Shown here: in pieces, positions 23,205 through 36,748 of the stretch | Position numbering within the stretch: the first letter of the stretch is position 1 | How the letters are laid out: every line of letters begins with the position of its first letter | From: Verrucomicrobia bacterium S94 | GTDB taxonomy: Bacteria > Verrucomicrobiota > Kiritimatiellia > Kiritimatiellales > Pontiellaceae | NCBI GenBank assembly: GCA_004299845.1 | Contig: CP036201.1 | Span: 1,116,001 to 1,180,000 of the forward strand | Direction of reading: 5' to 3' | DNA length: 64,000 nucleotides | Position numbers and translations under genes: made by a program | The notes under the pieces: generated by a model | What the model was told of the DNA's origin: nothing | The model's database searches: none | The model's input: the letters and a program-made list of their open reading frames with translations, nothing else

Positions 23205-23967
23205 ATGAAGCAGATCGCTGCGATGATCGGGGGAATGCTGTCTATAGCGGCTGTGTGTTCTGCTGTGGTGCAGCCCAACGTGATTATTGTCATTACAGAT
23301 GATCAGGGGTACGGCGATTTGAGCTGTCATGGCAATCCGGTCGTAAAAACACCGAACATCGATAAGCTGTATGAACAGTCGGTCCGTTTTGCCGATTTTC
23401 ATGCGGATCCGACCTGTGCTCCGACGAGAGCGGCATTGCTGACCGGGAAATATTCCCATCATGTCAAGGGATGGCATACCATTGCGGAAGGGAATTATCC
23501 TCGTGTTTATGAGGTGACGATGACGGATCTGTTTAAGGCTGCCGGTTACCGCACCGGATTATTCGGGAGATGGTATTTGGGGGCCAATTATCCGTATCGT
23601 CCGATGGACCGCGGTTTTGATGAACGGCTGGGGCAGGAGGGTGACGGCGGAACGGGGATGACTGATGACTGGTTTGATAATGATCGTGTGAATGATATGT
23701 ACTGGCATAACGGTGAACGCGAGCGGCGTGAAGGCTATGCACCCGATGTGTTTTTTGATGCCGCCATTGATTCCATCGTGGAAAAGAGGAAACAGCCGTT
23801 TTTTGTGTGTCTTGCCACCTGTCTGCCGCATGAACCGCATACCGTTCCGGACCGGGTGATGCTTTCTGCATATAAGAGTATTGTTTCTGATTACGAAGGG
23901 GCTTCTGCTGGACGAAGTCGGGCAGACGCCGGCCGGTGCATATTATATCTATGTCCACCGGAAATAA
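23205..23967 (+). pseudogene. S1 sulfatase with internal deletion
   Basis: A normal sulfatase N-terminus begins at 23205: signal peptide, DDQGYGDLSCHG, modification motif C-A-P-T-R (Cys71), and a degenerate GRWYLG where GKWHLG is expected (the Lys and His are both changed). After about residue 225 (HEPHTVPDRVMLSAYKS) the reading frame becomes nonsense and closes at 23981. In the +1 frame, bases 23900-23967 read LLLDEVGQTPAGAYYIYVHRK and stop; this resembles the natural C-terminal end of arylsulfatase A-type enzymes (G-A-Y-Y-V-Y-V). So the middle and most of the C-terminal domain are gone. The product is not expected to be active. Confidence 0.85.
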
Positions 23968-24045
23968 GAGTGGAAGCGTAAGCGAAAAAAGTAAACAGGA
24001 GCAGGGCCCGGGGTTTTGCTGAAGGGTCTGAACAGAGGATAATCA

Positions 24046-25694: not shown

Positions 25695-27557
25695 ATGATG
25701 ATGAAGAAGACGTTGACGGCAGTGACGGCGATGGCCGTGGTGGTTCCATTGCTCAGTGGAGCTGAAACAGAGCGGGTTGAGGTTAAGCTTGATCCGGGGA
25801 AAGTCCGGAATATCGGAGGTGTATCGGTTTTTGACCGGAATCAGTTTATTACGATTCACGAAGGGTTCGGCTCGACGGACCTTGAAGATGCCGATCTGAA
25901 ATACATTGAAGAGGTGCTGGAAGCCAATTACGGCCGTGACGGCGGTCTGATCTCGTGGATGGCGGAGGATCTTCCGGCTGATCCGGATAATCCGGATATG
26001 CCGGATGTAAGCCGGCTCAAGGCTTTGTTTAAAAAGAAATTCCGCGATGAATATGCCGGGCGGAGGATGAATCCCTCAAATATGGAGAAGGTGATTCTGT
26101 GCACTCACCCGGAAATCATGCACGGGCATGCAGGCAATACCTCGACACCGTGGGGACCGAAAACGCCGGAAGCGACGGCGGAATTCACTGCTCAGTTTCT
26201 GAAACACGCCTTTTCCGATGCCGAACGGCCGAAGATTCTTGAGGTGTATAATGAACCTTTTGTGAAAGCTAAAAAAATTCCATGTACTATTGAAGAGATG
26301 TGTGAACAGCACAATGTAGTGGCCCGCCGGGTGAAAGAACTGAATCCGGATGTGATGGTCGGCGGCTATTCGGCGGCCTGGGTGGAGGTTGAGAGCCGGA
26401 ATTTTGACCACTGGAACGGCTGGCAGAAAACATTTATGGATATTGCCGGGGAAAACATGGATTTCTGGTCATATCATATTTATGACGGGGTCAATGTGCA
26501 GGGCACTCCCCGCAATCGGACGGGCAGCAATTCCGAGGCGATCATGGATCTGATCGATACCTACAGCCACATAAAGTTCGGTGTGGCCAAACCGATTATG
26601 ATTACTGAGTACGGCAAGATTCCGGAAGGGAATATGAATACCATGCCCTACAGCGCGGAGCGGTCGGCCGGTATGCTCTATTCGGCGATGGGGCAGCTGA
26701 TGACCTATATGGATCATCCGGACCGTCTTATGCGCACCATTCCGTTTTTTCTGGGTAAAGCCACCTGGACCTACGATATGACGGAGAATCCGGTGCCCGG
26801 CGAGGCCAACCCGTTTCTGCTTTGGCGCAGATTGGCCGATGGTTCATTTGCGGAAACCGATTTGACGCTGTTCTACTATTTTTGGAAAGGGGTCAACGGG
26901 GAATGGCGCCAGAGCAGTTCCTCCAATCCGGATGTGCGGGTGCATATGCTGGCCGACGGCAATCGGCTGAATGTTATTCTTATGAATCTGGACGAAGATT
27001 CGAAACAGGTCGGTCTTTCGGGGTTGAGCGGTCTGATTCCGGAACGTGTCATGATCCGTTCGCTGACGACCAACTGTGAACGGCCGATTCTCGGCGAGCA
27101 TCCTGTAAGTGCCATTCCTTCGAGCCTCGATATGGAAGAGGGTGATGTGGTGATGCTGATGATTGATCTGAAGGAGCCGCTTCGGACAAATGGTCAGGTT
27201 CGCGAACATCGTGTTTATGCAACAGATTATCTGCAGGATATAGAAGCCGGAAAGAAGGTCAGGTTTACATTCCGGGATGTTCCGACCGGAAAAGGAACGG
27301 CCGTACTGCGTCTTTCGCCGGGACGGGAGCTGGGAAAACAGCCGCTGCCTTCGACCATTTCGCTGAATGGAACAGAACTGGAAATTCCGACCAACTGGGC
27401 GGGGGATGATCAGGAGGGGCGGGCCAACTTTTTCGGTATGGTTGAGTTCCGTGTGCCGATGGAGGCCCTGAAGAAAACCAGTGTGCTGGAAATGATCTAT
27501 CCGGATACCGGCGGGAAAGTGGCCTGTGCGGTTCTGCAGGTGAATTTGAATAACTGA
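25695..27557 (+). CDS. GH86 beta-agarase / beta-porphyranase, secreted (paralog of 10113 gene)
   Basis: The protein has 620 residues with signal peptide ([20 protein letters not shown]). It repeats the GH86 features of the paralog at 10113: [20 protein letters not shown], acid/base Glu187 in [18 protein letters not shown], nucleophile Glu305 in IMITEYGK, and the same C-terminal sandwich domains (TNWAGDD). The two genes are alike throughout, so this is a duplication with probable fine-tuned specificity. It heads a tight operon with a beta-propeller, GH2, GH50 and a sugar transporter; gaps are 24, 13, -1 and 2 bases. A palindromic operator candidate lies 143 bases upstream. It probably makes the oligosaccharides that the rest of the operon consumes (inference). 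Confidence 0.92.
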
Positions 27558-27581: not shown

Positions 27582-28592
27582 ATGGAAGAGAAAGAGAAAA
27601 CACGTCCGGAAGTGGTATCGGATTTCTGCAGGCGTCTCAGCGCCGGTGGCCGTATTCTTGAAGACCCTGATTATAATATCTGGGGCTGTGCTCCGATATA
27701 CGGTCCGGATGGAAAAGTGCATGTTTTTTATTCACGTTGGAAAAATGATGCCGGGCACGAAGGGTGGCTTACGGTCAGTGAAATTGCACATGCTGTGGCC
27801 GATGAGCCGGCCGGGTCGTATACAACAGTGGATGTAGCGCTGACCGGCCGCGGCGGCGAGTGGTGGGATTCCATGACGATTCACAATCCGACCATCCATA
27901 AAGTCGGTAATAAATATGCGTTGTTCTACATGGGAAATTCCGACGGTACGGTAATGACTAAACGTGTGGGGGTGGCGACCTCCGATTCACTGTATGGTCC
28001 CTGGAAGCGTTGCGACGAGCCGCTGATTCTGCCTTCGGAGGATCCTCAGGCCTGGAACTCGGTATGTACGTCCAATCCTGCATTTCTTCAGCATCCGAAC
28101 GGGGAATTCTGGCTCTATTATAAATCCTGGCGTGTTGCCGACTGGCAGCGGGATCTGGATACCGGCGACTGGCGTAATTCCAATCGTCAGTACGGTCTGG
28201 CGGTTTCTAAAAATCTGGAAGGTCCGTATGTGAAGCAGGGGGAGGATGCTCTGATTAATCTTCGGGAAAAGGTTCAGGATGCGCAGAGTGAGGATGCCTA
28301 TATCTGGCATGAAGACGGGACGTTCAGAATGATTATGCGGGATATGGGATTCTGGAATCATGAATACGGATTGCTTTTTGAATCTGACGACGGACTGAAG
28401 TGGGGTGATCCTCAGATTGCGTACTGGGATGCCTTCCGTTATTTCGACGAACCGGGCACCGGCGCCTGGGGTGAAGGTCGGTTTGAACGACCGCAGCTGC
28501 TGATGAAAGACGGCCGGCCGGAATATCTTTTCGGGGCTTATCGTGGCGGAAAATACGGTACCTCTACCGGGGTTGTGCTGAAACTGAATTAA
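27582..28592 (+). CDS. Cytoplasmic five-bladed beta-propeller, GH43/GH117-like fold
   Basis: The protein has 336 residues and no signal peptide ([20 protein letters not shown]). Five repeats with blade-start signatures are visible: [77 protein letters not shown] and [20 protein letters not shown]. This is the fold of GH32/43/62/68/117 enzymes, with acidic residues at blade starts (Asp27, Glu/Asp near SEDAY, Glu in FERPQ) that could form the active site. It does not match GH117 neoagarobiose hydrolases closely enough to name it. It lies between GH86 and GH2 in an agar-type operon that otherwise lacks the alpha-1,3-anhydro-L-galactosidase step, which makes it the leading candidate for that activity (inference). 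Confidence 0.75.
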
Positions 28593-28605: not shown

Positions 28606-30959
28606 ATGAACTGTAGAAAAATCGTTTCATTGAACGGCGATTGGAAATTTATTAAAGAGGATATTTCCGGAGCGGAGGCGGCGGCTTTTGATGATGCTTC
28701 GTGGCGTACTGTGAAAGTGCCGCATGACTGGAGTGTTGAGGAGTCGTTTTCGGAAAAATGGGAAGGCGCAACCGGTTATCTCCCGGGCGGTATCGGCTGG
28801 TACCGTAAAACATTCCAGGCTCTGGACAGGGAGGTGACCTATCTCCATTTTGATGGGATCTATAACAATGCGACGGTGTATCTTAACGGAGAGAAGCTGG
28901 GCGACCACCCGTATGGTTATTCGCCGTTTTATTATGATATTTCCGATAAGGTGAAAAGCGGTGGAAACGTGCTTGCTGTTCGGGTTGATCATTCGCGTTA
29001 TTGTGACAGTCGCTGGTATACCGGTTCAGGCATTTATCGCAGTGCCGAACTGATCGGCACCTCCGGAACGCATATTCCGGTTTGGGGCACCTTCATCACT
29101 ACGCCCGAAGTGCTGGAGGATCGGGCAACGGTCCGGGTGCAGGTGGAGATTTGTGAACCGGTCGGGGCTGTGCTGACTACGGCCATTCTGGATCCTGATG
29201 GCGAGCGTGTGGCGGAAGTTTCTGCGCAGGCGGAGGCGAGCACCATTCAGACGTTGGAAATTTCCAATCCCCGTAAATGGGATGTTGAATGTCCCAATCT
29301 TTATACGGCGGTAACAACGGTTTCCAGAGATGGAAAAGAAGTCGATGAAACCACTACGCTATTCGGTATCCGTTCTATCCGGTTTGATGCGGATGAAGGA
29401 TTTTTTCTGAATGGAAAGAATATGAAGATCAAAGGCGTATGCCTGCATCACGATGGAGGGTGCGTGGGTGCCGCTGTGCCGAAGGATGTCTGGCGGCGGC
29501 GTTTTGAAACACTGAAACGGGGGGATGTAATGCGATTCGAATTGCGCATAATCCGGGCTCCAGTGAATTCCTTGATCTCTGCGATGAAATGGGTTTTCTG
29601 GTACAGGATGAATTTTTTGATGAATGGGATAATCCCAAGGATAAACGCCGGAATCAGAATGAGCAGCATGATGATTATATCTCCAGAGGATACTGCGAGC
29701 ATTTTCAGCAATGGGCGGAAACGGACCTGAAAGCGGTCATTCGTGCGCATCGGAATCATCCTTCCATATTCCAGTGGAGTATCGGTAATGAAATTGAGTG
29801 GACCTATCCGCGCAATGCCGAGGCCACCGGTTTCTTCAATATGGGTTGGGAAGGGAATTATTTCTGGGAGCTTCCTCCGAATTCCATTGAAGAGATAAAA
29901 CGGTTGCTGAACGAGTTGCCGCGCGGTGAATATGATGTCGGCGAAACCGCTCAGAAACTGGCGAAATGGACCCGGGAGATGGATACGAGCCGCCCGGTCA
30001 TTGCCAACTGTATTCTTCCTTCGTCCAGTTATGAATCGGGCTATGCCGATGCGCTGGACGTGATCGGTTTCAGTTATCGCCGCGTCATGTATGATTACGG
30101 GCATGAGCATTATCCGGATCTTCCATTGATGGGGACGGAAAACCTGGGTCAGTGGCATGAGTGGAAGGCGATTGAAGAGCGTCCGTTTGTTCCCGGCACC
30201 TTTCTTTGGACCGGCATCGACTATATGGGTGAAGTAAACGGACAGTGGCCCAAAAATACGCTGGATTCCGGTCTGCTGGATCGTGCGGGTTTTGAGAAGG
30301 GCTCTTTTCATATGATGAAGACGCTGTGGTGTGATGAGCCGCATGTGCATCTGACTACCCAGACACTGGAAAAGTCGCCGTATGTTTTTGATGCGTCGAC
30401 CGGATTCATCGGTGAAGAGGATTCCGAGGCCTGGAAGCAGAAACTCTGGATCTGGCATGATGTGAATACCCATTGGAATTATACCGAGGGTGAAATGATC
30501 GCCGTTGAGGTGTATTCCAACTGTGAATCGGTGGAACTGTTTCTTAACGGGGAGTCGATGGGTAAAAAGAAGCTGTCTGATTTTGAAGATCATATCTACA
30601 AATGGGCGGTTCCGTATAAGCCGGGCAAACTCGAAGCGTGTGCGGAGGGGGCATCGGATCAGCTGGAGACCGCGGGTGTTCCTGCCGCGGTTCAGCTTTG
30701 TGCCGATGGAATGCATGTGATTGCCCAGCTGGTTGATGAGTCGGGGGTACCGGTGAAATCCGAGGAACGGGAGATTTCGTTTGTTGTTGAAGGCGGCAGG
30801 ATGCTCGGTGTGGATAATGGTTCGCCGTTCAGTATACAGGATTATCAGTCGGACCGTATAACCACCGCGAAAGGACGCTGTCTGCTGGTGGTGGAGAGGG
30901 GTTGTAAAGTTTCGGCGGCCGCAGATGGGCTCGCCGGGGCGGCTGTGGAGATGGAGTAA
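28606..30959 (+). CDS. GH2 beta-galactosidase, reading frame broken by one base
   Basis: The N-terminal part (28606-about 29520) has the GH2 sugar-binding domain ([49 protein letters not shown]) and the immunoglobulin-like domain. The C-terminal part (to 30959) has the barrel: acid/base Glu in WSIGNEIEW (bases 29790-29792) and nucleophile Glu in MGTENLG (30138-30140), then late domains. The frame changes at a run of six G (29519-29524); a seventh G restores the text [16 protein letters not shown]. This is either a sequence error or a recent mutation; everything else is intact. There is no signal peptide, so the enzyme is cytoplasmic and would remove galactose from imported oligosaccharides. 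Its stop overlaps the GH50 start (TAATG). Confidence 0.85.
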
Positions 30960-33079
30960 TGTCGATCTCTTTTAAGGATGCCCGCCGGAAGCGGACCGGT
31001 CTAACGCATCTCCGCCGGCTTGGGGGCTTTGTGTCCGGCCTGATGATTGTGTCGGTGTATGCAGCGTCTATGGAGCTGGTATCGTTCAATGAAGGTGCAG
31101 GGCTTTCATCGATAGAGTTTACGGATACCGCGGTTTCAAATCGGTATGGAGATACACTCGAAATTTATACCGGCGGAAACGATGAATGGCCGAGCGTAAC
31201 GTTCAGGGCGGAGAACGGACCCTGGAACCTTACGGGGTATTCCACGGTTAAAGCCGATTTTACAAATCTGGGAAGTGCACCGATCTATCTGGGAATCCGG
31301 CTGGACAGTGCATCGGCATCGGAAATCGAAACGCCTCAGTATGCACAGGGGTTTGAGCGGCTGGAGCCCGCAGAAACACGGACCATCAGTGTTCGGCTGA
31401 GTACGGAGGACTGGGTGTTTTCCAAGCCGCTGGAACTGGTGGGGATGCGCCGTCCGCCGGGCGTTGAGCTGATGGATCTGGTGAATATCGAGCGGATTCA
31501 GATTTTTGCCGGACATGTTCATGAACCTTCGTGGTTTGCGGTATCCAATATCCGGGCAGAAGGTGCGGTGAAGCGGGTGGATCCGGATGGATATCTGCCT
31601 TTTGTTGATACTTACGGGCAGTACAGGCATCGTGACTGGGAAGATAAAATCCGGTCGGATGCCGATTTTGAACAGCGCCGGCGTGCGGAGGAAAAGGATC
31701 TGGAAGCTCATCCCGGGCGTTCAGACCTCGGAATGTTCGGGGGGTGGAAAAACGGGCCGCAGCTGGAGGGTACCGGTTTTTTCCGGGTGGAAAAAGTAGA
31801 TGGAAAATGGTGGCTGGTGGATCCCGAAGGCTATCTTTTCTGGTCGACCGGTCCGACGTGTATGAATCCGGATTTCGGCTATACCGGTACTGAATTCCGA
31901 GAGGCGTATTTTGAAAGCCTTCCGGCAGGCGGGGAATTCGAATCGTTCTACCAGGACTGCACCTGGGCGCCACACGGTTTTTATAAGGATAAAATTCCGT
32001 TTAAAATCCTGCAGTTTTATAAACTGAATCTGTATCGGAAATACGGCGAAGACTGGATGGCGCAGTTTATCGATCTCGCGCATCGGCGACTGAAAAGCTG
32101 GAATATGAACACGGTGGCCAACTGGGCGCTTCCGGAAGTGTACCGGGTACAGCGTACGGCCTATGTGGCGAATTTTTTCATACGCGGCAATCGGGAGCTG
32201 GACGGCTCCCGCGGGTACTGGGGAAAGTTTCATGATGTGTTTGATCCTTCATTCCGTGCGGTGATTCAGTCCAATCTGGCTGTTTTGGCTGAAGAAGCGG
32301 CAGATCCGTGGTGTATCGGATTTTATGTGGATAATGAACTTTCCTGGGGCTATGACGGGATGTCGCTGGCCATTGAAACCCTTTCCTGTCCGGCGGATCA
32401 GCCGGCGAAACAGGAATTTATCGCGGATCTGAAGCGCAAATATGGACGTATTGAACAGCTTAATCTTGCCTGGGGAACGGCCTATACATCCTGGACGGCT
32501 TTGCAGGAATCGACGGAAGCGCCGGATCCGGTACGGGCCGGGGAGGATTTGAGGCGGTTTTATGCGAAGACGGCGGAGACCTATTTCAGAACGATTCGGG
32601 AGGAGCTCAGAAAAGCGGCGCCCAACCATCTTTATCTCGGATGTCGTTTTGCATGGGTGAATGATACCGTTGCGGTTGCGGCTTCCCGGTATTGCGATGT
32701 CGTCAGTTATAATAAGTATGAGCACAGTATCCGCAGTATGCGACTGCCGCACTTTATCGACCGTCCGATGATGATTGGTGAATACCATTTCGGGTCTACT
32801 GAACGGGGGCATTTTCATCCCGGCCTGAAAGAAGCGGATACGCATGCGGGCCGTGCGGAAAAATTTAAAGATTATGTGTACAGCGCACTCGATAATCCGC
32901 AGATGGTCGGTGTTCACTGGTTCCAGTATGTGGATGAGCATATCGCCGGGCGCGCGGATGGGGAAAACTATAACGTTGGGCTCGTGGATATCTGCGATAC
33001 TCCGTATGTTGAAATGGTAGAAGCCATGCGGGAGGTCGGAGCCGGTATGTATGAGTATAGAAAAGGGAAAAGAGATTAA
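30959..33079 (+). CDS. GH50 beta-agarase, secreted (paralog of 11966 gene)
   Basis: The protein has 706 residues; a signal peptide follows a basic N-terminus ([16 protein letters not shown]). It has the GH50 plan: N-terminal carbohydrate-binding-like domain, linker with [20 protein letters not shown], and barrel with acid/base Glu460 in VDNELSWG and nucleophile Glu608 in [12 protein letters not shown]. It is clearly related to the GH50 gene at 11966, which is also preceded by a GH86 gene, so a GH86-GH50 block exists twice in the window. Translation is coupled to the GH2 gene by TAATG. It likely releases neoagaro-disaccharides or tetrasaccharides for the downstream transporter. Confidence 0.92.
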
Positions 33080-33081
33080 TC

Positions 33082-34671
33082 ATGTCTGAAAAAAATAAGC
33101 ACGAGAATGAAGAACAGCCGCAAATCAAGCCGGAGGATAAAATCCCGCTGCTTCAAAAGATAGCCTATTCCATGGGGGTGGTTTCTGATCACTATGCGAA
33201 TGTCTGTCTTGCCTGGATTTTTCTGACGCCTTTTTTCGTCGATTTTCTGGGGCTGGGAGCAACGGTGGTGGGTCTGGCTTTGGGGGCGGCCCGTTGCTGG
33301 GATGCCTTTACGGATCCGCTTGTCGGACGGATTTCCGACCGGACCAAAAGCCGGTTCGGTCGGCGGAAACCGTATATTTTTGTCGGGGCTATTCTGACGG
33401 GACTGATGTTTCCGCTGATCTGGCTGGTCCCTGAGAGCTGGTCAACGGCGGCGATTACTGCATATCTTTTTGTGGCGCTGATGATTTTCTTCTCCGTCTA
33501 CTCCATTTTTTCAGTGCCTTACGAAGCTTTGGGGGCGGAGCTGACGCCGGATTACAGTGAACGTAGCTGGATTTTTATTGTCCGGAAATATGTCCAGGAG
33601 CTTTTCAACCTCGGCATTGTCTGGGTGTTTCCGCTGGCGATGTGGCTGGGTAAACGGGTCGGCGGAGAGATTAACGGGGTGCGTTCCATCAGCTGGGTTA
33701 TCGGCGGAGTGATTATTGTGGCGGGGATTCTTCCGGCTATCTTCAATAAGGAACGGTATAAAGATATTGCGACAAAAGAAGGCTCCGGAAGTTTTAAAGA
33801 AGGTCTTACGGCACTCATCAGAAACAAGCCGCTGCTGATTGTGATCGGTGTGATTGCAACCTATCTTTTTGCCATTATGGCAACAGCCAATCTGGCCTAT
33901 TTTGTGAATGTCTACTACATCTATGAGGGTGATGTGGTGAAAGGTGCCGCACTTGGCGGTATTGACGGAACACTGCGTCTCGGTTTTGCACTGACCACGG
34001 CCTGGGTCATCGGACTGATTGGAAACCGGGTGGATAAACACAAAATTATGCTCGCATCCTGTGCCATCCTGCTGGTGGCTTTTGTCGGAATGTATTTTAC
34101 CACAATTACCGGCCGTCCTTGGCTTGCGCTTTCAATGAAGCCGCTGGTAGCCATCGGTGAATGCGGTTTCTGGGTGCTGATTCTTTCGATGCGGGCCGAT
34201 GTCTGTGACTGGGATGAATATAAAACCGGCACGCGCAGTGAAGGGCTGATTGCCGCTATTGCGAACTGGTGCAATAAAATCGCCATGACGTTGGCGATTG
34301 TCATTTCCGGTTGGAATCTGGAGCATATTGTTAAGTTTGACAGTAAACTGGACGAAGCCGTTAAAACCGAAATCGTTGCTCAGGCGGAAGCGGAATACGC
34401 GGAAATGACGGAAGCGGAAAAGCTTGAAGCCGGCGGAGGCGAAAAACCGATTTCGCTTGAAGTATATACGGATATACTTGAACGTAAGAAAGTGATGGAA
34501 AACCTGGAACCGGGAACCATGAAACGGCTGCGTATATTCTACTCGCTGCCGCAGGCCGGAGCATTGATTCTGTGTCTGATCATGCTGAGCCGTTATCCGC
34601 TCACCCGGAAAAAGATGGAGGAGATTCGAGCGGAGCTCGAAGCGCGGCGCGGTGTGGCCGCTGTCGAATAA
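33082..34671 (+). CDS. GPH-family sugar:cation symporter (MFS, MelB-like)
   Basis: The protein has 529 residues with about twelve membrane segments. It carries the GPH signature after helix 2: [20 protein letters not shown] followed by RRKPYI (residues 74-98), where the Asp residues serve cation and sugar binding in MelB. A charged loop ([20 protein letters not shown]) near residue 430 is larger than in MelB. GPH carriers bring in disaccharides and oligosaccharides with Na+ or H+. As the last gene of the GH86-propeller-GH2-GH50 operon, two bases after GH50, it is the obvious uptake route for galactan oligosaccharides in a locus without SusC/SusD. A terminator follows. Confidence 0.93.
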
Positions 34672-34828: not shown

Positions 34829-36748
34829 ATGAAAAGAGTACTGTTTGGGGTGATGGCTGCATCTGCGGGGTTGACGGTTGCCGCGGAATACAAAGCTGAA
34901 TGGTCGGATCTGAACCGCTATCCGCAGGCGGAATGGATCAGCAAGGCGAAGTTCGGGCTGTACTGGCATTGGAATTATAATTCGATTGCCGGTTTCAACG
35001 GCTGGTACGGACGGAATATGTATAACGGTCCGGACGGGTATGTTTTTAAATACCATAAGGAAAAACACGGAGATCCGGCAGCGTTCGGCTACAAGGATTT
35101 TGCGCCGTTGTTTACGGCTGAAAAATTCAGTGCAAAACAGTGGGTGGATGATGCCGAGCGGATTGGTGCGAAGTTTATTGTCGGTATGGCGGTACACCAC
35201 GACGGATTTGATCTGTATGATTCAAGCTATACCCCCTGGAATTCGGTGGATAAACCTCCGCATATCGATGTGATCGGTGAGCTGGCGAAAGAGGCCCGGA
35301 AAAAAGGGTTCAAATTCGGGGCAACGTCCCATCTGGCCTGGAACTGGACCTATTTCAGTTCTTTTATGTATCCGGACAAATATGACGCGAAGAAGGCACC
35401 GGAGCTTTACAATATTCATGATCCTGAAAAGGGACCGAGTGAAGCCTGGGTGAAGGAATGGTATGCGCGGACGACCGAGCTGATCGATAAATATAAACTT
35501 GATTTTCTCTGGTTTGATTTCGGAACGATGGACAAAGGGTTCAGTGATCAGTATACCGCAAAGCTTACCGCGCATTATTATAATAAATCGGTGGAGTGGG
35601 GAAAAACCGTGGCGCTGGCTACCAAGGTCGGTTTTGAAAACCGCAAGAGCCAGGTTCATGATGTGGAACACGGGAAATTCGGATACATCCGCTATCCGCA
35701 ATGGATGTCGGACAGTACCCTGAACAAAGGCTGGTTCTATATGGGTGCCGAAGAGGATCCTAAACAGATAACCGGCGAATTCTGGCTGTATCAGCTTATC
35801 GATATCGTCTCCAAAAACGGCACGTTACTGCTGAATATCGGCCCGAAGGCGGATGGCTCATGGAAAGAAGAGTGGAAGCAGGAGCTTTTCCGGATGGGGG
35901 ACTGGCTGAAACTGAACGGTGAAGCGGTGTACGGAACGAAACCGTGGCATCGCTACGGCGAAGGTCCGACGCATGACGGCGATGCGGAGCATTACAATCT
36001 CGGCCGGAACCTGACCAAAGACGATGTGCGGTTTACGCGTAAAGAGAACGCACTTTATGCCACGGTTTGCGGTTGGCGGGGTGAGCCGATCAACATTCGT
36101 TCGCTTGGCCGGAAAGAGCTGCCGGGACTTGAAATTTCAACCATTTCCATGCTGGGTTCTCCTGATCGGATAAAATGGGAACTGAAGGATGATGCTCTGA
36201 GCGTTTCCTTTCCTGAAAAACCGCCGTGCGAATATGCCTATGTTTTTAAGATCGAAGGCAAAGGACTGTTCCCGGAACGGGCTCCGGAATATCTGCCGGT
36301 TCATGTTGAGCCGCCGAAAGAAAAAGTTGCGGCACTGCGGATCAGTCTTCCGGGAGATCATCAGCAGCTTTCGGTTGCTGAGGTTGTGGCGGTCGGACGC
36401 TCAGACTGGGCTAAAATCAATCGGGTGCCGGAAGCTGAAATTACGATGTCTTCGTGCGAAACCGACCCCATGCTTGCGGCGGATCTGAATATGAACGGCC
36501 ATCCGAACATGCATTCCGTGGCCCGTTCTGAAACTGAAACCGATCCGTGGATGCTGGTGACCCTTCCTGAGCCGATGAATATTCTGGATCTGGAAATTCT
36601 CGGCGGTATGGAACATTGGGATGAATTTGCCAAAGAGGGGAAAATTGAAGCACTGGATGCCGCTGGAAAGGTGATTCATTCCTGGCGTGTGAAAGAATGC
36701 CTTGAAGAACAGAAGGCCGAGACGGAATATCTGGGATTGTCCGGCTGA
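34829..36748 (+). CDS. GH29 family alpha-L-fucosidase-like enzyme, secreted
   Basis: The protein has 639 residues with signal peptide (MKRVLFGVMAASAGLTVAA). The GH29 barrel begins at WISKAKFGLYWHWNYNSIAG, with AVHHDGFDLYDSSYTPWNSV and the expected nucleophile Asp230 in DFLWFDFGTMD; the late motif GTLLLNIGPKADGSW is present. It is longer than the GH29 at 2949 because of C-terminal domains, including a discoidin-like region (about 510-630, PWMLVTLPEPMNILDLEI). The HW-N pair in YWHWN replaces the common HWG, marking a distinct branch. In a galactan locus, action on alpha-L-galactose or its sulfate form is possible besides fucose (inference). The gene is monocistronic; next to it is a decayed regulator on the other strand. 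Confidence 0.88.
   Translation: MKRVLFGVMAASAGLTVAAEYKAEWSDLNRYPQAEWISKAKFGLYWHWNYNSIAGFNGWYGRNMYNGPDGYVFKYHKEKHGDPAAFGYKDFAPLFTAEKFSAKQWVDDAERIGAKFIVGMAVHHDGFDLYDSSYTPWNSVDKPPHIDVIGELAKEARKKGFKFGATSHLAWNWTYFSSFMYPDKYDAKKAPELYNIHDPEKGPSEAWVKEWYARTTELIDKYKLDFLWFDFGTMDKGFSDQYTAKLTAHYYNKSVEWGKTVALATKVGFENRKSQVHDVEHGKFGYIRYPQWMSDSTLNKGWFYMGAEEDPKQITGEFWLYQLIDIVSKNGTLLLNIGPKADGSWKEEWKQELFRMGDWLKLNGEAVYGTKPWHRYGEGPTHDGDAEHYNLGRNLTKDDVRFTRKENALYATVCGWRGEPINIRSLGRKELPGLEISTISMLGSPDRIKWELKDDALSVSFPEKPPCEYAYVFKIEGKGLFPERAPEYLPVHVEPPKEKVAALRISLPGDHQQLSVAEVVAVGRSDWAKINRVPEAEITMSSCETDPMLAADLNMNGHPNMHSVARSETETDPWMLVTLPEPMNILDLEILGGMEHWDEFAKEGKIEALDAAGKVIHSWRVKECLEEQKAETEYLGLSG

Follow-up and report, generated by a model that had tools for sequence, protein, structure and literature searches.

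Large pools of carbon reside in red-algal galactans and in pectin, and to our knowledge some steps in their breakdown still lack assigned enzymes. GH117, GH43, GH130 and GH137 have in common the fold of the five-bladed beta-propeller glycosidase superfamily. In GH117, catalysis involves Asp90 as the base, His302 with Asp320 as the acid, and Glu303; activity is likewise lost when Asp245 or Glu167 is mutated (PMC11574756). The catalytic triad of clan GH-F, which includes GH159 and GH43, consists of an Asp base, an Asp pKa modulator and a Glu acid (PMC9278983). In the porphyran locus of Bacteroides plebeius, a sulfatase, then GH29 and then GH2 act successively, BpGH29 being an exo-alpha-L-galactosidase (PMC12316285). 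Lac161_ORF10, a 63.7-kDa beta-galactosidase of the DUF377/GH130 group that is active on lactose, is also reported to have a five-bladed propeller and was proposed to represent a new family (PMC5342196).

The propeller gene and its operon

The marine Verrucomicrobia bacterium S94 breaks down galactans of red algae. In the 64,000-nucleotide stretch of its genome analyzed here (the window), a propeller gene lies in the following run of genes:

25695–27557, + strand, GH86-type beta-porphyranase/agarase with BPA_C and Porphyrn_cat_1 domains and a signal peptide
27582–28592, + strand, propeller ORF (ATG start, 336 aa), a five-bladed beta-propeller of glycosidase type without a signal peptide
28606–30959, + strand, GH2 (GalA/GalB-like), frameshifted near 29520 into ORFs 28606–29730 and 29589–30959
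30959–33079, + strand, GH50 beta-agarase-type protein (E 2e-98 to beta-agarases) with a signal-like N-terminus
33082–34671, + strand, GPH-family sugar:cation symporter
34829–36748, + strand, GH29 with a signal peptide, nearest among solved structures to BpGH29, the exo-alpha-L-galactosidase of a porphyran locus

An earlier sequence-only reading had described an operon of GH86, propeller, GH2, GH50 and GPH symporter. This order was confirmed, and the gene order GH86-propeller-GH2-GH50-GPH-GH29 is kept in the congener G035. The genes of that list are real, but in the S94 assembly a frameshift interrupts the GH2 gene, whereas it is a single open frame in G035 (L116:10329-12641), and the run continues beyond the symporter, across a 157-base gap, to a GH29 that had not been listed. 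A simple hydrophobicity test agreed with the earlier statement on export, with signal-like hydrophobic N-termini found in GH86, GH50 and also GH29, and none in the propeller or GH2. Scans for promoters, terminators and inverted repeats did not clearly delimit the operon (7 promoter-like sites observed vs 12.4 expected). A sulfatase ORF at window positions 23205–23981, possibly truncated or frameshifted, has only 258 aa, which match the N-terminal two thirds of the Pfam domain.

The orthologue of the propeller in G035 is 86% identical, with a dN of 0.08 against a dS of 1.13, and third codon positions hold 131 of the 183 nucleotide differences. Because of this low dN relative to dS, the propeller is judged from its substitution pattern to be a functioning gene under purifying selection. 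The window GH29 matched BpGH29 with an E value of 8e-99 (next fucosidase, 2e-57); it is thus nearest to the porphyran exo-alpha-L-galactosidase and unlike a typical fucosidase. Since this GH29 resembles BpGH29, the alpha-1,3 step for porphyran is probably not missing from the window operon.

Fold, family models and catalytic residues

An AlphaFold model of the propeller built on 61 relatives reached a pLDDT of 95.3, and its predicted fold is that of GH117, the best match among all solved structures. GH117 headed both structure lists (Foldseek ranks 1–18, VIA-align ranks 1–9) with Z scores of 29–31 across 280–297 residues, followed by GH137 (Z 28) and then by GH130, GH43 and GH159 (Z about 26). 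The solved structures nearest by sequence were also GH117, matched over the middle blades (E 5e-8, or E 8e-20 with a family profile), and GH117 was the closest profile in HHalign (99.8%, E 2.8e-29). The propeller domain of GH137 BT_0996 gave a probability of 50% and an E value of 1.6e-4 on only five GH137 rows. The earlier description of a five-bladed, GH117-like propeller is borne out by the confident model and its GH117 matches at Z about 30.

Its suggestion of a new or divergent family also stands, as none of the Pfam and NCBIfam models searched claims the propeller at a meaningful score. The sole Pfam match of the window propeller is GH43, at 31.1, just below the cut-off of 32.2, and the propeller paralogues reach 35–41. 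Because genuine GH117 proteins also exceed this cut-off, the GH43 model is superfamily-wide and does not discriminate, and assignment to GH43 by Pfam was dropped. The NCBIfam model for beta-1,2-mannobiose phosphorylase is matched by 59 of 61 family members; the window propeller scores 30.5 against a cut-off of 450. Pfam GH130 gave no match to the window propeller, and its relatives scored 16–18 against a cut-off of 26. Full-text literature searches found no description of the family. On these models and searches, the propeller is rated as a divergent, apparently unclassified family within the five-bladed propeller glycosidases.

The catalytic positions of GH117 were anchored on the BpGH117 chain via the H302E and E303Q mutant entries and transferred by profile alignment, and 60 aligned propeller relatives were compared with 20 GH117 proteins. 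The column of Asp90, which lies in the RRDPS motif and is present in 20/20 GH117, holds Gly or Cys35 in the propeller family, and none of the 60 relatives has an Asp or Glu at residues 34–39. The equivalent of Asp245 (Asp in all 20 GH117) is Asn165 in 60/60 relatives, and GH117 Lys260 is retained as K181. An invariant Glu237-Asp238 pair lies at the spot of GH117 His302-Glu303, before the first strand of the next blade, a pairing that is positional only because HHalign has a gap here; the profile alignment showed no evident counterpart of the GH117 His acid in the propeller family. In the alignment via GH117, the family keeps only the Glu position of the clan GH-F triad, and the Asp base and the Asp modulator are not kept. 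With these base and pKa-modulating carboxylates missing, the usual hydrolysis route is not assured. E237 probably keeps the general-acid Glu position and may serve as the general acid. The carboxylates E67, D96, E237 and D238 and the residues H47, H101, N165, K181, R202 and R253 are identical in 60/60 relatives, a conservation that points to a functional active site; W34 and H101-N102-P103 are further invariants.

The tree unites 19 GH117 rows in a single group (support 98/97), and all propeller rows fall outside it, with long branches between. GH117 is nearest in fold and profile, but residues and tree place the propeller outside the family. Membership of GH117 by fold was ruled out by the absence of Asp90 and Asp245 equivalents and by the position outside the GH117 clade. 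A propeller encoded beside agarases must not receive a GH117 annotation from its fold alone.

GH117 in the genome and the wider propeller family

The search agreed with the earlier observation that no GH117 occurs within the 64-kb window. The sequence-only reading had further proposed that the propeller takes over the role of an absent anhydro-galactosidase, and had named a genuine GH117 elsewhere in the genome, combined with inactivity of the propeller, as what would refute this. A genuine GH117 lies at C1:1523865-1524995 (E 5e-150 to BpGH117), and a genome without GH117 is thus ruled out. A second S94 copy at G000:C1:22987-24014 (L015, L018), 55% identical to the full-length one, is frameshifted into two overlapping frames, with relatives that are intact in L123 and L135; two GH117 of a more distant type are also present. 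The full-length gene belongs to a paralogous operon (L161, G000:C1:1516000-1535900) that encodes, on one strand, a propeller, GH2, GPH, a second GH2, GH29, GH117 and GH86, and the propeller of this operon is 68% identical to that of the window.

Defining a close propeller by an E value below 1e-120 and a clade-A GH117 by 54% identity or more, we found both among 289 genomes of the phylum in the same five (G000, G035, G087, G228 and G211); because four of the five represent one genus, these are not five independent events. Clade-A GH117 is also encoded in the genomes of the nearest homologues beyond the phylum searched, from a Vibrio (73%) and an Opitutales MAG (71%), and likewise in the genomes of relatives in Pelagicoccus, Algisphaera and Epulonipiscium. 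Since propeller and GH117 occur in the same genomes and in one operon, the propeller accompanies GH117 rather than replacing it. The proposed substitution is thus not supported: the GH117 beside a propeller in the paralogous operon, the absence of the GH117 base and Asp245, the clade-A GH117 in the genomes of the nearest homologues, and the operon's own GH29 speak against it.

One scan of GTDB genomes yielded 133 relatives, 80 of which were kept, from Kiritimatiellota, Verrucomicrobiota, Planctomycetota, Bacteroidota, Bacillota and a Vibrio, spanning six phyla at about 45–73% identity. Loci in Kiritimatiellota, Verrucomicrobiota and Planctomycetota contain GH2, GH86-type porphyranases, sulfatases and, in some, GH94. 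Directly downstream of the propeller, no more than about 0.8 kb away, a GH2 is encoded in the window, in the paralogous operon of the same genome and in many PVC loci; propellers without an adjoining GH2 occur in the Vibrio (L021), Opitutales (L022), a planctomycete (L028) and Bacteroidota. A GH94 phosphorylase gene adjoins propeller paralogues in L025, L026, L027 and L013 (9632-12055), an arrangement conserved in Pontiellaceae-type genomes.

Bacteroidota loci encode SusC/D-like pairs, GH28, GH88/105, GH106, PL11 and DUF4450, and by this gene content they are pectin/rhamnogalacturonan I sets. Their propellers, from soil and gut bacteria, are about 47–54% identical and carry an export signal that, judged by eye, is often twin-arginine-like. 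In Dysgonomonas and several Bacteroides, the propeller is fused behind a pectate-lyase-like domain (L041:8624-10984, L043:8645-11005, L046, L048, L051, L052 and L057, all in pectin loci), a stand-alone copy of which (L050) matches a solved pectate lyase at E 2e-68. Neither clade-A GH117 nor GH86 of the window type was found in the Bacteroidota genomes examined. Because these relatives, which are not tied to red algae, occupy pectin loci, the basic or ancestral activity of the family is not agar-specific.

Some family members occur in other surroundings. The homologue of Vibrio sp. qd031 (L021:10001-11017, 73%) nests among Kiritimatiellota in the tree (support 99/96), and was likely acquired by inter-phylum transfer, as judged from this position; its contig is labeled a plasmid and has no carbohydrate genes beside the propeller. 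Candidatus Epulonipiscium viviparus (L097:5367-11089) has two copies beside GT8/DUF4422 glycosyltransferases and FkbM methyltransferases, which is odd for a degradative enzyme. The S94 genome contains up to five copies of the propeller family. Four further, distant propellers of this genome (L008, L009, L010 and L011) have a common ER(P) motif, some lying beside sulfatase or GH29 genes; for L011, no PDB relative was found by sequence.

Proposed role and relation to known systems

We lean toward the reading that the propeller is an unclassified enzyme of the propeller superfamily that acts in the cytoplasm with GH2 and removes, from imported red-algal galactan oligosaccharides, a residue left untouched by GH117 and GH29. 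GH86 would cut the galactan polymer outside the cell, GH50 and GH29 would trim the products outside the cytoplasm, and the GPH symporter would import the short products, which the propeller and the adjacent GH2 may then finish in the cytoplasm. The propeller would remove one non-reducing-end or side-branch residue and thereby expose beta-D-galactose for GH2, with GH117 taking anhydro-galactose and GH29 taking L-galactose. This order of steps is suggested by the signal sequences, the arrangement of the genes and the porphyran pathway as known; catalysis by the propeller and its cytoplasmic site are likewise predicted. Against this reading, no single substrate is obviously common to agar and rhamnogalacturonan loci, and a literature search for one (L-galactose, xylose branches) gave nothing decisive. 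It is possible, if a little short of probable, that the propellers form a new family in which the GH117 fold bears a rebuilt catalytic machinery (no base or modulating Asp; invariant E67, D96, E237 and D238) and which, in degraders of red-algal galactans and of pectin, cleaves a bond not known to be opened by any named family. The family, which is conserved and occurs in both settings, has non-standard catalytic residues and offers a concrete target for assays.

Other roles were weighed against this one. Substitution for GH117 as the operon's alpha-1,3-neoagarobiose (3,6-anhydro-alpha-L-galactosidase) hydrolase would fit the closest fold and profile, the apparently cytoplasmic location and the pairing with GH2, as that step would need, but it is highly unlikely in view of the genuine GH117 in the genome, in one case beside a propeller, the loss of the base and D245 in all 60 relatives, and the many relatives in pectin degraders that lack both clade-A GH117 and window-type GH86. 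The propeller might instead cleave another alpha-1,3-linked residue of the L-galactose type (L-galactose 6-sulfate, methylated L-galactose or methylated anhydro-galactose) off imported disaccharides. The GH2 pairing, the adjoining porphyranase-type GH86, and several paralogues per genome, which suit several differently decorated galactans, are consistent with this, and the conserved R90, K127, R128, R202 and R253 could hold an anionic group; the same operon, however, already has an L-galactosidase-like GH29, and relatives in pectin loci do not meet porphyran, so that we consider this activity unlikely.

A phosphorylase of the GH130 type, in which phosphate replaces the missing base aspartate, is suggested by the absence of that residue, by GH130 structures at Z about 26, by the mannobiose phosphorylase model that nearly all members match, and by the GH94 gene beside some paralogues. 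It is nevertheless very unlikely: the NCBIfam and Pfam GH130 scores are far below and below their cut-offs, respectively, and Bacteroidota members have export signals, where phosphorolysis is improbable. Loss of two of the three clan GH-F carboxylates (triad as in PMC9278983) could also mean a non-catalytic protein that binds sugar or regulates, yet four carboxylates and many polar residues are invariant over six phyla at about 45–73% identity, and the pectate lyase fusion and PUL context suggest an enzyme; a non-catalytic role is highly unlikely.

Among known systems, GH117 (BpGH117, 4ak5 and 3p2n; SdNABH, 3r4y; Zg3615; Zg3597), the 3,6-anhydro-alpha-L-galactosidase or neoagarobiose hydrolase family, is like the propeller in its fold and profile, its agar setting and its lysine (K260, propeller K181). 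The propeller differs in lacking the Asp90 base, in having Asn for D245 and Glu-Asp at the His302-Glu303 position, in occurring also in pectin loci and alongside GH117, and in lying outside the GH117 clade. GH137, represented by the beta-L-arabinofuranosidase domain of BT_0996, is the second-best fold (Z 28), although its profile similarity is weak (HHalign 50%); BT_0996-type proteins combine the propeller with a GH2, and in S94 it adjoins a separate GH2. With GH43 and clan GH-F, including GH159, the propeller has in common the fold, Pfam GH43 scores at or near the cut-off and probably the general-acid Glu position (E237), whereas the base Asp is non-acidic and the pKa-modulating Asp is Asn in all propeller relatives. 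The GH130 mannoside phosphorylases are similar in fold (Z about 26) and in lacking a base aspartate, but the propeller is far under the family cut-offs and some of its relatives are exported. Lac161_ORF10, which differs in its DUF377/GH130 assignment and its size of 63.7 kDa, resembles the S94 propeller, by its description, as a reported five-bladed propeller enzyme for which a new family was proposed.
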